Below are positions 5,630 through 62,597 of a DNA stretch of 64,000 nucleotides, piece after piece (the stretch's first letter is position 1; the number at the start of each line of letters is the position of its first letter). A program made the position numbers and the translations under genes. Origin of the DNA: Halapricum desulfuricans. GTDB taxonomy: Archaea > Halobacteriota > Halobacteria > Halobacteriales > Haloarculaceae. The notes below the pieces were generated by a model that had not been told where the DNA came from, did no database searches, and saw only the letters and a program-made list of their open reading frames with translations. The DNA lies in assembly GCF_017094505.1 (NCBI RefSeq), contig NZ_CP064787.1:186001-250000 (forward strand). The letters are read 5' to 3'.

Positions 5630-5646
5630 GCTGTCAGATCGGACTG

Positions 5647-5726
5647 ATACTGGTGGCTATAACACTTCGAAATGATCTGACGCGCCGTCGTGCCAGATAT
5701 CTTTCCGAACGTACAGTCTCCAGTGT
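5647..5726 (+). repeat. 80-bp imperfect palindromic element, copy 1
   Basis: Starts ATACTGGTGGCTATA and ends GTCTCCAGTGT, where the right end is a degenerate inverted copy of the left. The core reads ATCTGACGCG, CCGT, CGTGCCAGAT, so one arm of the central hairpin has drifted in this copy. It shares TTCGAAATGATCTG and CCGAACGTA with copies at 10363 and 50225 and has exactly the same 80-bp length. It begins 17 bp after the uvrC stop. TGA sits immediately at the left edge (5645-5647) and immediately after the right end (5726-5728), as in the other copies. Confidence 0.85.
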
Positions 5727-6018
5727 GAGCGAGTCGTGTGACCGTTCTCGAAGAGTCCCGGCGTGGAGCCACACGCCGGCGGATCGACTCCGGCGCGTCA
5801 GTTCTGGCGTTCGGATCAAACGGCCGTCGCGACGACACCTGGGGGGATGTGGAAACGAGCGCTCGAGACGGCCGGCCGCGACCGAAGCCGATCCGTCCGA
5901 CGGAACGCTCGGCCGGCCCTTAATCCCCGGACAGCGTTTTCACAGCGAGAAGAAGCCGGCTCAATTTCGGCCAGCGACTAACAAGCCTTTTTTGACCGCC
6001 CGTGAGAACTAGCGGGTA
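5727..6018. other. Non-coding stretch with strong hairpins after uvrC
   Basis: No convincing coding frame. It contains a stem CCGGCGTG/CACGCCGG around 5759-5781 and a perfect 9-bp stem GGCCGGCCG (5870-5878) / CGGCCGGCC (5910-5918) closing a 31-nt loop that itself has a small CCGT/ACGG hairpin. A pyrimidine/T run (CCTTTTTTGACC) precedes the regulator gene at 6019. A structured small RNA on either strand is possible but not shown. Confidence 0.45.
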
Positions 6019-10180: not shown

Positions 10181-10363
10181 ATGCATCGACCAGTGCTGTG
10201 GCTTTTTGCGGGCGTTGCCCTCTCGGCTGTCTGAGCGTGGCTGCTCGCCACTGAACCGGCTGACTCGCTGGCGCGGCTGTCCGGTCTCTGGATCGGGTTA
10301 CACGGACTCGGCGCACTGGCGGTCGGCGCGTGGCAGTGGCTCCGGAATCGAGATGAGGTATGA
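10181..10363 (+). pseudogene. Small two-helix membrane protein gene interrupted by in-frame TGA
   Basis: One frame runs from ATG 10181 to TGA 10361-10363 (61 codons) with a single internal TGA at 10232-10234 (codon 18). Before the stop it reads MHRPVLWLFAGVALSAV. After the stop it continues as AWLLATEPADSLARLSGLW and a second hydrophobic stretch GLHGLGALAVGAWQWL. Both halves look like membrane helices, and the lost codon is most simply explained as TGG (Trp) changed to TGA. Selenocysteine is not expected in haloarchaea. It follows the helicase by 26 bp, and its terminal stop codon coincides with the left edge of repeat copy 2. Confidence 0.5.
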
Positions 10364-10442
10364 TACTAGTGGCTGTACCATTTCGAAATGATCTGGCACG
10401 ACGGCGTGCCAGATATCTCTACGAACGTATAGCCACCAGTAT
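10363..10442 (+). repeat. 80-bp imperfect palindromic element, copy 2
   Basis: The best-preserved copy. Left end ATACTAGTGGCTGTAC, right end TATAGCCACCAGTAT (inverted). The centre is a perfect 10-bp hairpin ATCTGGCACG / CGTGCCAGAT around ACGG. Flanking arms TTCGAAATG and CTACGAACG also pair imperfectly, so almost the whole element folds back on itself. It begins on the last base of a stop codon and ends about 5 bp from the 3' end of the SRP RNA, which is transcribed toward it. Confidence 0.9.
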
Positions 10443-10446
10443 GAAT

Positions 10447-10756
10447 GGCGGACGGCCGGCGTTGCCCGGCGTTCGGACGCGGATAGTCTCGCGCGCCTCC
10501 TCCACCCCGCGACCCGACGAGCGGCAGGTGTCCGCGGGTCCGCTGCTCGCTTCCGCGCCTGACGGGGTGCCCGCGGTCAACCACGGCGACTCGCCCCTGC
10601 AGGCGAGTTCCCGTGGACCGCTACCCCCGTCGGACGAGGCTTCGACGTTGGCTTGCGAGGTCCGCGCCCGTCGACCGGACGCCTCCGGTGTTCGGCCCCC
10701 GCTGAAGACCATAGCGCGGGTATAGGGGCGGGGCCTAACCGCCCGGCCTAGTCCGT
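10447..10756 (-). ncRNA. ffs: Signal recognition particle RNA (7S RNA)
   Basis: About 310 nt, the archaeal SRP RNA length. On the minus strand the S-domain helix 8 signature GTCAGGCGCGGAAGCGAGCA is at 10563-10544, containing the GGAA tetraloop and the SRP54-binding internal loop. A helix 6 hairpin (ACTCGCC/GGCGAGT) is near 10588-10610. The Alu-domain core GGCCGGGCGGTTAGGCC is at the 5' side. The termini pair to form archaeal helix 1: GGAC-TA-GGCCGG near 10754 with CCGGCCGTCC near 10450. Ends are estimated from this helix to within a few bases. The RNA assembles with SRP54/SRP19 for co-translational targeting of membrane proteins. Confidence 0.93.
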
Positions 10757-10776
10757 CTGAATCTACCCCGCTGTGA

Positions 10777-47954: not shown

Positions 47955-47999
47955 CAACTTCCCCCAATTATATTGCCTGTTAGACACTTCTATCGACGT

Positions 48000-50225
48000 A
48001 TGGGATCGGCGAGGCCGATACGGGTCCTCTACGTCGACGACGATCCGCACCTCGGGGCACTGGTCGGGTTGTTTCTGGAGCGCGAGGCGGACGACCTCCG
48101 GGCACAGACGGCCGCGAGCGTCGGCGAAGCGCAGTCGGCTCTCGCCGAACACGCCTTCGACTGCGTCGTCTCCGCTGGCGAGTTGCCGGATCGGAGCGGC
48201 GTCGAGTTCTTCGAGAGCGTCCGGGACGACTACCCGCATCTGCCGTTCCTCCTGTTTCTCGATCGGCCCGACGAGACGGCCATGCGCGAGGCGATCGACG
48301 CTGGCGTCACCGACTACGTGCGGAAGGGGATCGGCCCCGGTCAGTACGCAGTGCTGGCGGATCGGATCGTGAACGCGGTCCAGCGCCACCGCGCGACCCG
48401 TCGACTCCGCAAAGCCGAAAAGCGGTATCGATCGCTGTTTACCGAGACGAACGAGGGCGTCGCGCTCCTCGAACTCGTCACCGACGACGCGGGCGAGCCG
48501 ACCGATTTCAGAATTCTCGACGTCAACGACCAGTACGCGTCCATCCTCGACCTGGACCGGGCCGACATCGTAGGAAAGCGTGGATCGGAGGTCTACGGTA
48601 CGGCTGCCTCGGCCTATCTTGACCGGTATGCCGAGGTCGTCCGGACGGGGGAGCCGATCGAGTTCGAGACGTACTATCCACCGCTGAAGAAGTCCCTCCG
48701 GGTCGCGGCGTTCTCACCGACCGATGGTCAGTTCGCGACGGCGCTTTCCGATATCACTGAGCAGAAACGGGCCGAGGAGAGGATTCGGGAGTCTCAGCGG
48801 ACCTACGAGAACATCTTCCAGGGCATCAGCGAAATCGCGTTCGTCCACGAGACGGGCGGGGAGATCATCGCGGCCAACGAGGCGGCGCGTGAACGACTCG
48901 GCTACAGCGAGGAGTCGCTTATCGGCATGTCACCGCTGGAGACCGACGCTGTCGACATCTCTGACGCCGGCGTTCGCGAGCGGCTGGAGACGGTTCGCGA
49001 ACAGGGCCACGTGACGTTCGAGACGAGTCTCGACGCGAAGACTGGCGAGTCTGTTCCGGTCGAGATCTCGTCCAGCCGGATCGAGTACTTCGGCATGCCG
49101 GCAGTCCTCAGCATCGCACGTGACATCAGCGAACGCAAAGAGCAGGAACGACAGCTGCACACGCTCAACGAGCGGTTCGAGTTGGCGCTGGAGGCGGGTC
49201 AGTTCGGCGTCTGGGACTGGAACGTCGAGACCGATCAGGTCACGTACGATCAGCGATGGGCGGAGATGCTGGGATACTCTCTGGCGGAGATCGAACCCCA
49301 CCTGAGTGCCTGGGAGGACCGAGTTCATCCCGATGATTTGCCCGACGCGAAAGCGTCGCTGCAGGCTCACTTCGACGGCGAAACCGACTACTACGAGACC
49401 GAGCACCGAATGCAGGCGAAATCGGGTGACTGGATCTGGATCCGCGACATCGGTAAGGTGTTCGAACGCGACGAGAGCGGTGATCCGGCCCGGATGGTCG
49501 GGGTCCATCAGGACATCACCGACCGAAAGCGACGCCGACAAGAGTTGCGACGACAGAACGAGCGCCTCGATGAATTCGCGAGCCTCGTCAGTCACGACCT
49601 CCGCAATCCGCTCCAAGTTGCCGACGGACGGATCGAACTGGCGGCACAGGACTGTGACAGCGATCACCTCGACTCGGCCATGGCCGCGGTCGAACGGAGC
49701 CAAAATCTGATCGACGATTTGCTATCCCTTGCCCGAGAGGGCGAACGCGTCACCGACATGGAGCCTGTCGAGCTACCGCCACTGGCCGAGGACTGCTGGC
49801 AGCACGTCGAGACGGCCGATGCGACGCTGTCTATCGAGGCCGATCACTCGATCCGTGCCGATGAGCGTCGTCTCAAGCGGCTGTTCGAGAACCTGTTCCG
49901 CAACGCCGTCGAGCACGGCTCGCTGACCTCCGACCCGGGGGCCCGTCAGGACGCTCTCGAACGCGGTGGCAGCGACGTCACTGTCCGGGTCGGGCCGCTC
50001 GACGAGCGAAACGGATTCTACGTCGCCGACGACGGAACTGGCATCGACCCGGACGAGCGTACGGAGATCTTCGAAAGCGGCTACTCGACGTCACGGGATG
50101 GTACCGGATTCGGGCTCGCAATTGTCGAGGAGATCGCACAGGCACACGGCTGGCACGTCAGCGTCACCGACAGCGAGAGCGGTGGCGCACGTTTCGAGAT
50201 CAGCGGCGTGGCCACTGTCGAGTGA
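48000..50225 (+). CDS. Hybrid histidine kinase with degenerate receiver and PAS domains
   Basis: A 741-residue soluble sensor kinase. Order: receiver-like domain (residues ~5-125, IRVLYVDDDPHLGALVGLFL), three PAS-type domains (~145-260, ~270-385, ~390-515; EHRMQAKSGDWIWIRDIGKV is a PAC block), H-box VSHDLRNPLQVADGRIELAA and HATPase with NLFRNAVEHGS, DDGTGIDPDERTEIFE and SRDGTGFGLAIVEEIA. In the receiver the phosphoacceptor site reads CVVSAGELPD, with Ala59 in place of Asp, and the Thr position reads Leu (LLFLDRPDE); Lys is kept. The ATG at 48000 replaces an in-frame TTG upstream. The stop codon overlaps the 80-bp element. Confidence 0.9.
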   Translation: MGSARPIRVLYVDDDPHLGALVGLFLEREADDLRAQTAASVGEAQSALAEHAFDCVVSAGELPDRSGVEFFESVRDDYPHLPFLLFLDRPDETAMREAIDAGVTDYVRKGIGPGQYAVLADRIVNAVQRHRATRRLRKAEKRYRSLFTETNEGVALLELVTDDAGEPTDFRILDVNDQYASILDLDRADIVGKRGSEVYGTAASAYLDRYAEVVRTGEPIEFETYYPPLKKSLRVAAFSPTDGQFATALSDITEQKRAEERIRESQRTYENIFQGISEIAFVHETGGEIIAANEAARERLGYSEESLIGMSPLETDAVDISDAGVRERLETVREQGHVTFETSLDAKTGESVPVEISSSRIEYFGMPAVLSIARDISERKEQERQLHTLNERFELALEAGQFGVWDWNVETDQVTYDQRWAEMLGYSLAEIEPHLSAWEDRVHPDDLPDAKASLQAHFDGETDYYETEHRMQAKSGDWIWIRDIGKVFERDESGDPARMVGVHQDITDRKRRRQELRRQNERLDEFASLVSHDLRNPLQVADGRIELAAQDCDSDHLDSAMAAVERSQNLIDDLLSLAREGERVTDMEPVELPPLAEDCWQHVETADATLSIEADHSIRADERRLKRLFENLFRNAVEHGSLTSDPGARQDALERGGSDVTVRVGPLDERNGFYVADDGTGIDPDERTEIFESGYSTSRDGTGFGLAIVEEIAQAHGWHVSVTDSESGGARFEISGVATVE

Positions 50226-50304
50226 TACCGGTGGCTCTCCCGGCTCGAACTGATTCGGCACGATTGCGTGTCGAATATCTTTCCGAACGTATCGCCACCA
50301 GTAT
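50225..50304 (+). repeat. 80-bp imperfect palindromic element, copy 3
   Basis: Left end ATACCGGTGGCTCTCC and right end ATCGCCACCAGTAT. Centre ATTCGGCACG, ATTG, CGTGTCGAAT: two stem positions differ from copy 2 on both arms together, so pairing is kept. It starts on the last base of the kinase stop codon and lies in a convergent gap, 41 bp from the stop of the small membrane gene on the other strand. Length again 80 bp. Confidence 0.87.
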
Positions 50305-50345
50305 GAGCGACGGTGGGTCGGACGTGGCTGTCCGATGCGTTTCGC

Positions 50346-60651: not shown

Positions 60652-62597
60652 CGCGACCACCGCCGTTGGGCGCGGTCGATCGAGATCGCGAGCGGCTCCC
60701 CGCGCCGCCAGTCGATCACCCGCACGTCGGCGTCCCTGAGCCGTGACAGCCGGAGACGCCGTTCAATGTGGGCGACAGTTCGACCGGGGGTGTCGGTCGC
60801 CGTCGCGTCCGGCGCGACGACGGTCATCGGATACCCGTAGGCGTGCAGCCGGCGGGCCATCGAGACGGCCGTCTCGTCGGTGAGCGGCGAGAACAACACC
60901 AGCTGGGCGTCTTTCGGGAGTCGCTTTCGAAGCCGTCTCATCGCGAGCAGCGCGTAGAACTCGCCGTTTCCACCCTCGGTGAAGGCGCGCTCGGTCGTCA
61001 GCAGTCGCTGTGCCAGCGCCCAGTGTCCGTGGCCCGAACCGGGCGCGAGCCAGCAGTCCTCGGCCCCGAGCGCGCCGAGCCCGACCCGGTCGTCGCTGTC
61101 CAGCCGGCTGCGGAACACCTCGGCGGCGGCTCCGAGGCTCCGCTCGATCGCGCTCGGGGCGTCCCGTTCGGGCGCGACGAACGCCTCGCTCCGGGCGTCA
61201 AGCAACAGCACGACCGTCGCGGCGTGCTCCTCGCGGAACTGCATGGTCGCCGGCTCGCCGCCGCGCGCGACCCGGTTCCAGTCGATCCGCTTGAGCGAAT
61301 CGCCCGGCCGGTACTCCCGGACGGAGTGAAACTCCAGACCGCTGCCGCCGACGTCCGTGACGACTCGACCGACGTCACGGCTCGTCTTCGCCCGAACCGG
61401 GACCGAGAGGTCGCTCGTCGGCTTCGGCTCACAGCGGACGGACGCGTCGCCGCTCGCCTCGACGCGTTCGGTCCGCTCGACGCTGCCGCTGGCGCTCCGG
61501 GCGATCACCAGCGGGTCCTCGAAGGCGTGTTCGCCGCGCTCGGCTTCGATCAGGTACGCGAACGTCGCCGACGCCCCCGGACGGAGCGCCGTCCCGTGGC
61601 GCGGCGACCCCGAGACGACGGTCAGTCCCGGCGGCACGCCGTCGAGATACCGCAGATCCGAGACCAATCCGTCGCCGGCGTTCGAGACGGTGACGGTCAC
61701 ACGGACCTGCTGGCCCGGATCCGGTTCGGGGTCGTCGAGTTCGCGCTCGACGTCGAGCCGGGGGGTCGGCGTCGAGCCGACGTAGCGAAGCGCGATCGGA
61801 CCGAGCCCGACGACGCCGGCGAGCACGAGCGGCCCGGCGTTCAGGAGGACACCGAGCCCGACTGCCAGTAGCGTCAGCCCGGTCACCATTCGCCAGCGGT
61901 CGATCCCCATGACTCCTCGTTCGACGTCTGCGAGCCGACCGACCCACCCCTCGTCGATCTCCGACCGGGCACCCGGTTTCTCGGGATCGGTCCACTCGCG
62001 TTCGCTGACGCCCAGCCGATTCGCCAGGCTATCGATCGCGTGGCGGGCCTGCATCACGAGCGGATGCCGTCGCCGGGCGCGCATGCGGAGCCGATCGCCG
62101 GTCGAGAACGGACTGTCGGACTGAAAGAAGCCCGCCGCGACGCTGTCGTCGGTCCACGTCCCGGACTCCACGGCCGCTTCCCGGTCCGATTCTGCCGTTC
62201 CTGTCCTCGATAGCACGTCCCCGAGCACCGCGCGCAGGCGGTCGCGAACCGCACCGATGCGCTTGTACTGACCCAGCGGCCCTTCGGCGGTCGATCCGGA
62301 GAGATCCGCGTCGATCGACGTGCCCGGCACGCTGACCGTCGATCGGTACTCGATCAGCGGCGGATCGAGTTCGCCCCGCTCGTCGCGGAGGTAGTTGATC
62401 CCGAGCGCCAATGCCGCCCCGACGCCGAGTAGCGCCATCAGGTACTCCAGGACGACGATCGGATCGAACGTCGGTGCCAGCTCCGGGTCGAGGACGAAGC
62501 CGATCGCGATTGCGACGGCGAGCGCACCGAGCACGACCGAGACGAGCGTCGCCCCCGACAGCTTGTCGGCCTCCGCTGCCGTCGTGCGATCACTCAT
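60648..62597 (-). CDS. DUF58 domain membrane protein
   Basis: A 649-residue protein. N-terminal helices near residues 15-35 and 45-65 and two more near 240-275 anchor it. A CARDB-like beta domain follows (VRVTVTVSNAGDGLVSDLRY). The DUF58 core is FHSVREYRPGDSLKRIDWNR, and a vWA-like domain has VVLLLDARSEAFVAPERDAP. The C-terminus includes QLVLFSPLTDETAVSMARRL. DUF58 proteins partner MoxR. Overlaps the DUF4129 gene by 8 bp and the next gene by 4 bp; all three form one operon. Confidence 0.9.
   Translation of the reverse strand: MSDRTTAAEADKLSGATLVSVVLGALAVAIAIGFVLDPELAPTFDPIVVLEYLMALLGVGAALALGINYLRDERGELDPPLIEYRSTVSVPGTSIDADLSGSTAEGPLGQYKRIGAVRDRLRAVLGDVLSRTGTAESDREAAVESGTWTDDSVAAGFFQSDSPFSTGDRLRMRARRRHPLVMQARHAIDSLANRLGVSEREWTDPEKPGARSEIDEGWVGRLADVERGVMGIDRWRMVTGLTLLAVGLGVLLNAGPLVLAGVVGLGPIALRYVGSTPTPRLDVERELDDPEPDPGQQVRVTVTVSNAGDGLVSDLRYLDGVPPGLTVVSGSPRHGTALRPGASATFAYLIEAERGEHAFEDPLVIARSASGSVERTERVEASGDASVRCEPKPTSDLSVPVRAKTSRDVGRVVTDVGGSGLEFHSVREYRPGDSLKRIDWNRVARGGEPATMQFREEHAATVVLLLDARSEAFVAPERDAPSAIERSLGAAAEVFRSRLDSDDRVGLGALGAEDCWLAPGSGHGHWALAQRLLTTERAFTEGGNGEFYALLAMRRLRKRLPKDAQLVLFSPLTDETAVSMARRLHAYGYPMTVVAPDATATDTPGRTVAHIERRLRLSRLRDADVRVIDWRRGEPLAISIDRAQRRWSR

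Follow-up and report, generated by a model that had tools for sequence, protein, structure and literature searches.

A 78-bp palindromic, probably MITE-like element with TNA target duplications in Halapricum desulfuricans and other Halobacteriales

Three copies of a palindromic unit in the window

The genome of Halapricum desulfuricans examined here (G000) is a single contig of 2.94 Mb. Its positions 186001 to 250000 make up the window, the stretch of 64,000 nucleotides that was analysed. Three palindromes of 80 bp each, predicted at 5647–5726, 10363–10442 and 50225–50304 of this window, were confirmed at that length. In all three (3/3) the unit is better read as 78 bp with a TGA on either side, and the features around the copies are as follows.

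5645–5647, + strand: TGA, left target duplication of copy 1, from reading of the flank
5648–5725, + strand: copy 1, 78 bp; the end of a uvrC-like gene (5629) lies 15 bp upstream, and the right end is mutated (CAGTG)
5726–5728, + strand: TGA, right target duplication of copy 1, from reading of the flank
10361–10363, + strand: TGA, left target duplication of copy 2, from reading of the flank
10364–10441, + strand: copy 2, the element under study, 78 bp, with an outer stem of 15 pairs that includes the adjoining A and T, an asymmetric middle and an inner stem of 10 pairs
10442–10444, + strand: TGA, right target duplication of copy 2, from reading of the flank
10446–10758, − strand: archaeal SRP RNA gene (RF01857), a neighbour outside the element, whose 3' end copy 2 adjoins
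50223–50225, + strand: TGA, left target duplication of copy 3 and at the same time the stop codon of the gene at 47973–50225
50226–50303, + strand: copy 3, 78 bp, more diverged than copies 1 and 2
50304–50306, + strand: TGA, right target duplication of copy 3, from reading of the flank

The gene that ends on copy 3 encodes a sensor histidine kinase, judged by its sequence. The element has the ends TACTGGTGGC...GCCACCAGTA, and is a non-coding unit of 78 bp between two TNA copies of the same three bases. An earlier estimate that the copies diverge at roughly a quarter of positions was fair, the pairwise identities over the 78-bp core being 64/78, 60/78 and 54/78 (82, 77 and 69%). A 21-mer from the right half, allowing up to 3 mismatches, has three matches in the window and none in 100 shuffles. 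The claim that no open reading frame lies inside is right in effect: one frame reads through copies 1 and 2, but it meets stops in sister subfamilies.

Around one axis of symmetry the element has two stems, the outer one with 15 pairs and the inner one with 10; between them lies an asymmetric middle (13 + 13 bases), and the inner stem closes on a loop of 4 bases. RNA-fold z-scores for the + strand of the three window copies are −3.3, −8.1 and −2.7. Among 28 members, 94% of the cells are paired (the figure given with the 15-pair outer stem is 96%), and both partners have changed in 11 pairs; covariation scores 0.314, compared with 0.125 for shuffles and no more than 0.085 for slid alignments. 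Joint changes occur at columns 9/76, 31/54, 33/52, 36/49 and 40/45 among 152 oriented members. Mismatches in the stems are G-T in 96 cases and A-C in 72; with the two about equal, both strands keep the pairing to much the same degree. Such pairing seems to fit DNA better than RNA, whether as paired binding sites, as a cruciform or through arm-to-arm repair.

BLAST with copy 2 matched about 45 places in G000, besides reverse-strand echoes, and degraded copies were added by a search with the end pattern and by a covariance model applied to selected loci. The search of the genome for further copies that the original prediction had proposed thus gave 46 copies with both ends recognised, and about 54 when degraded ones are included. 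At 62233–62397 of the genome (L010, L038) two copies stand head to tail on one common TGA, an arrangement that insertion of one copy into the other's duplication could have produced.

Target duplication, element-free sites and gene context

Of the first 41 copies, 15 have TGA as the adjoining three bases on both sides, 11 have TCA on both and one has TAA on both. Over seven genomes, 169 copies have TNA on both flanks, and the middle base agrees in 160 of them (G000 32/34, G001 24/24, G005 10/11, G002 3/3, G016 16/16, G119 39/45, G138 36/36), where chance would give half, G and C being about equally common. This agreement marks TNA as a target-site duplication. A 3-bp TNA duplication and a duplication of one base within a TNA target leave the same string in the finished sequence and are therefore indistinguishable. 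The target logo over 160 sites is symmetric and forms the weak palindrome GACT(S)AGTC. Length is nearly fixed: 171 of 193 copies measure exactly 84 bp including both TNAs, as do all 37 of the 37 copies in G138.

Sites free of the element, which the original prediction had also proposed looking for in relatives, were found when the joined flanks of 14 copies were searched in four congeners. Continuous sites lacking the element occur in G001 (at 98% and 95% flank identity), in G002 (91%) and in G005 (88%). The TNA itself is altered (GGA, GCA) at two of the cleanest of these, so that the empty sites are not base-perfect. One site in G001 is filled by another copy, and there the two flank matches overlap by exactly TGA. 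G000 and its closest relative, G001, have window copies 1 and 2 in common; G002, G003 and G005 lack the insertion of copy 2, and G002 also lacks that of copy 1. Copy 3 is likewise missing in G002, where the gene ends in the TGA stop codon and no element follows.

Two further loci were noted in the same comparison. The element-free 3' flanks of the SRP RNA gene in G005, G003 and G002 (L486, L488 and L489) keep GTATGAAT where the element ends in the other genomes, which could be the old target or a deletion scar. At 1339503–1339586 of G000 (L009), a copy interrupts a degraded transducer-like gene and adds a stop codon; G002, G003 and G005 have no copy there.

With gene context taken from a simple home-made gene caller, the copies in G000 lie in 18 convergent, 20 tandem and 8 divergent gaps, and rarely inside genes. 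This range of settings, together with the absence of a T-run from the copies shown, leaves no need for the suggestion that the palindromes are bidirectional terminators. About 20 of the 54 copies in G000, and roughly a third of copies overall, sit exactly on a TGA stop codon. Public annotation agrees on this position twice, at an HTH gene in Halomicrobium LC1Hm and at an M48 protease in Haloarcula hispanica. Under a null in which every TSA site within a gap has the same chance, 30 stop-codon insertions are expected and 50 were observed, a number reached in 0 of 20,000 simulations. Strong targeting of stop codons was dropped as an explanation, as TGA is itself a TNA target and the gaps are short, which leaves the difference between 50 and 30. 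The preference is at most moderate and comes mostly from the TNA target and from tolerance, and the remaining excess may arise because particular bases next to the site are favoured.

Spread, age and the search for a parent

Matches in the congeners number 46 in G001, 34 in G005, 27 in G002 and 1 in G003, some of them being one copy read on both strands. The exact end pattern is present in 22 of 293 Halobacteriales genomes, in which a control pattern gave 0; outside the order, only 2 single hits were obtained in 97 genomes. The distribution is patchy, with element-rich and element-empty species side by side within genera. Sister subfamilies have the ends TACTGCCGG, TACTGTCGG or TACTGTTGG and different interiors, at an unchanged length of 78 bp. 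Copies are carried on plasmids in Haloarcula hispanica, Haloarcula rara, Halomicrobium mukohataei, Halomicrobium sp. LC1Hm, Halobellus ramosii and Halobellus limi, and the element also occurs in assembly SHR40. Phage records contained no match to it, and two scans of IMG/VR returned single hits at chance level only.

Mean identity within a genome is 84% in G000 and in G001, 91.8% in G119 and 97.5% in G138. Judged by these values, the copies in G000 and G001 are old, and the about 50 very homogeneous copies in G138 are a recent burst, which would make that genome the best place to seek the mobilising enzyme. Shorter derivatives were also seen, one of 30 bp in G138 and one of 49 bp, including both TNAs and without the inner stem, in two species of another genus (L462 2436; L185 1501; L186 1517).

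An autonomous element with these ends was not found in G000, G119, G138, or the other genomes and viral contigs searched. Transposase profiles were run on 13 genomes, ten of which carry several copies of the element; PF13340, PF13359 and PF13586, the families linked to TNA targets, had no match in these genomes, G138 included. DDE_Tnp_1 is matched only twice in G000, by a sequence with five stops and by a partial ISH3-like protein.

Several candidate parents were set aside. The PF01609 transposases, searched for in G138 and G000 only, lie between ends that differ from those of the element. Unpaired ends in several genomes (L184, L191, L192, L194, L201, L206) and in G119 and G138 are truncated copies or chance, and a 2.6-kb pair of ends in a phage-like viral contig (L102) is likewise due to chance. 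A 332-bp pair in G119 turned out to be an 80-bp unit split by a different sort of insert, 250 bp long and flanked by an 8-bp duplication. This insert (L414, G119 C4:166969–167300) is itself MITE-like, with the ends CGCTCTT...AAGAGCG and the duplication TCACGTAG.

We found no description of a 78-bp family of this kind in the open-access literature, and conclude that the element represents an orphan MITE-like family not previously described in the literature searched.

Mobility and comparison with known systems

The palindromes are very probably copies of a non-autonomous MITE-like DNA transposon mobilised in trans, a reading to which we assign a probability of about 0.86 and which the target duplications, the element-free orthologous sites, the high copy number and the patchy spread all support. 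In this scenario, a trans-acting transposase would recognise the two inverted ends (TACTGNYGGCTATA), the TNA target (the weak palindrome GACT-S-AGTC) would be cut with a 3-base stagger, and the 78-bp unit would be inserted so that a TNA is left on either side. Insertions would survive mainly where they are harmless, in intergenic gaps and at TGA stop codons, which the duplication rebuilds. We infer a trans-acting enzyme of the DDE type and movement of the unit as DNA. The original prediction had offered MITE-like derivatives of a transposon, bidirectional terminators or a structured RNA family. Its MITE-like part is supported, the terminator option is not needed and the RNA option is not favoured; as for derivation from a transposon, no full-length element with the same ends was found in the genomes searched.

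Known archaeal MITEs (those of Haloquadratum, ISH2 and MITEHsal1/2) are, like the element, short and non-coding, with inverted ends, target duplication and many copies. The element has three of the features by which MITEs are recognised, namely a short non-coding unit with terminal inverted repeats, a target-site duplication, and dispersed copies with empty sites in relatives. It differs from the archaeal examples in measuring 78 bp, where MITEHsal2 has about 410 bp and the ISH2-type HqIRS32 520 bp (PMC3119063 among other sources), in being nearly all palindromic, and in that a partner transposon with the same ends was not found in the genomes and viral contigs searched. The small mobile repeats (SMRs) of Haloquadratum walsbyi are 80–110 bp long, with inverted ends and no transposase, and their movement has been called enigmatic; they reportedly insert into other mobile elements, with no duplication of the target (PMC3119063). 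Compared by description only, the SMRs, above all the 80-bp SMR-B HqIRS41, resemble the element in being haloarchaeal, non-coding and multi-copy, with inverted repeats unrelated to known transposons. The element shares with them the 80–110 bp range, the inverted ends and the lack of a transposase, but, unlike them, it has a TNA duplication and sits mostly in gaps and at stop codons.

A narrower version of the preferred reading makes the element a classical MITE whose full-length parent, an IS1031-type insertion sequence of the IS5 superfamily, is lost or lies outside the genomes searched. As a sub-case it overlaps in confidence with the broader reading, and we hold it to be possible, at somewhat less than even odds. 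The IS1031 group of the IS5 family inserts at TNA with a 3-bp repeat (PMC12016507), as the element does, and the related eukaryotic NuwaII prefers C|TNA|G (PMC4482050), which is close to the logo of the element; the palindromic C|TNA|G extension is common to the element, the IS1031 group and the PIF/Harbinger-type (PHIS) transposons (PMC12016507, PMC4482050). However, the element has no protein, and the associated transposase families are those absent from the 13 genomes tested. An IS5-type transposase with matching ends was not seen: the end of ISLrh, GAACCTGTCTAGTATCT (PMC12016507), is unlike TACTGGTGGC, and the ends of the PF01609 transposases examined in G138 are different too. The pairing of the inner stem exceeds what a plain terminal repeat needs, and in this respect counts against a MITE-like transposon. 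It is rather doubtful that the element is instead a self-maintaining 78-bp lineage, moved by an unrecognised and perhaps domesticated host enzyme that reads the whole folded unit and not by an insertion sequence sharing its ends; if this were true, the length and both stems would be kept while the sequence drifts.

Movement by a single-strand (HUH, Y1) transposase, in the manner of haloarchaeal PATEs or bacterial REPINs, would account for the hairpins and the fixed length. The doublet-like architecture is similar and PATEs are present in haloarchaea (PMC3119063), but PATEs and other IS605-type elements have neither terminal inverted repeats nor target duplication (PMC3119063), and with both present in the element we regard this as very unlikely. 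A structured RNA family at gene ends, selected on the transcript as, for example, a 3'-end processing or stability element, is highly improbable: the good hairpins, the compensatory changes in both stems, and the frequent placement at stop codons and, once, where the SRP RNA gene ends would suit it, but the matching TNA flanks and element-free sites show insertion, some copies occupy divergent gaps or the interior of genes, and selection on one RNA strand should yield a large excess of G-T over A-C mismatches, whereas G-T is only slightly commoner. Nor does any curated Rfam family match the element. Hardly credible, and dropped, is an in-frame protein-coding insert like the Rickettsia palindromic elements; the net gain, 81 bp, is divisible by three and several copies have one frame open throughout, yet that frame is lost between subfamilies, the copies are mostly intergenic or at stop codons, and one brings a stop into the transducer-like gene. 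REPINs and Rickettsia palindromic elements resemble the element as short dispersed palindromic units of fairly constant length, a likeness of form rather than of compared sequence. They are not haloarchaeal, and they insert differently.

As a MITE-like transposon, the element would be a DNA transposon of very small size whose target duplications are clean; its length stays the same in different haloarchaeal families even as the interior drifts, with compensatory changes. Without a visible partner transposase, it points to an enzyme yet to be found, and it bears on how the small mobile repeats of haloarchaea move. The copies could be used as insertion markers; their landing sites are regularly stop codons and, in one case, the position immediately after the SRP RNA gene. 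Haloarcula hispanica is a genetically tractable species, and the sister copies on its plasmids would allow mobility to be tested there.
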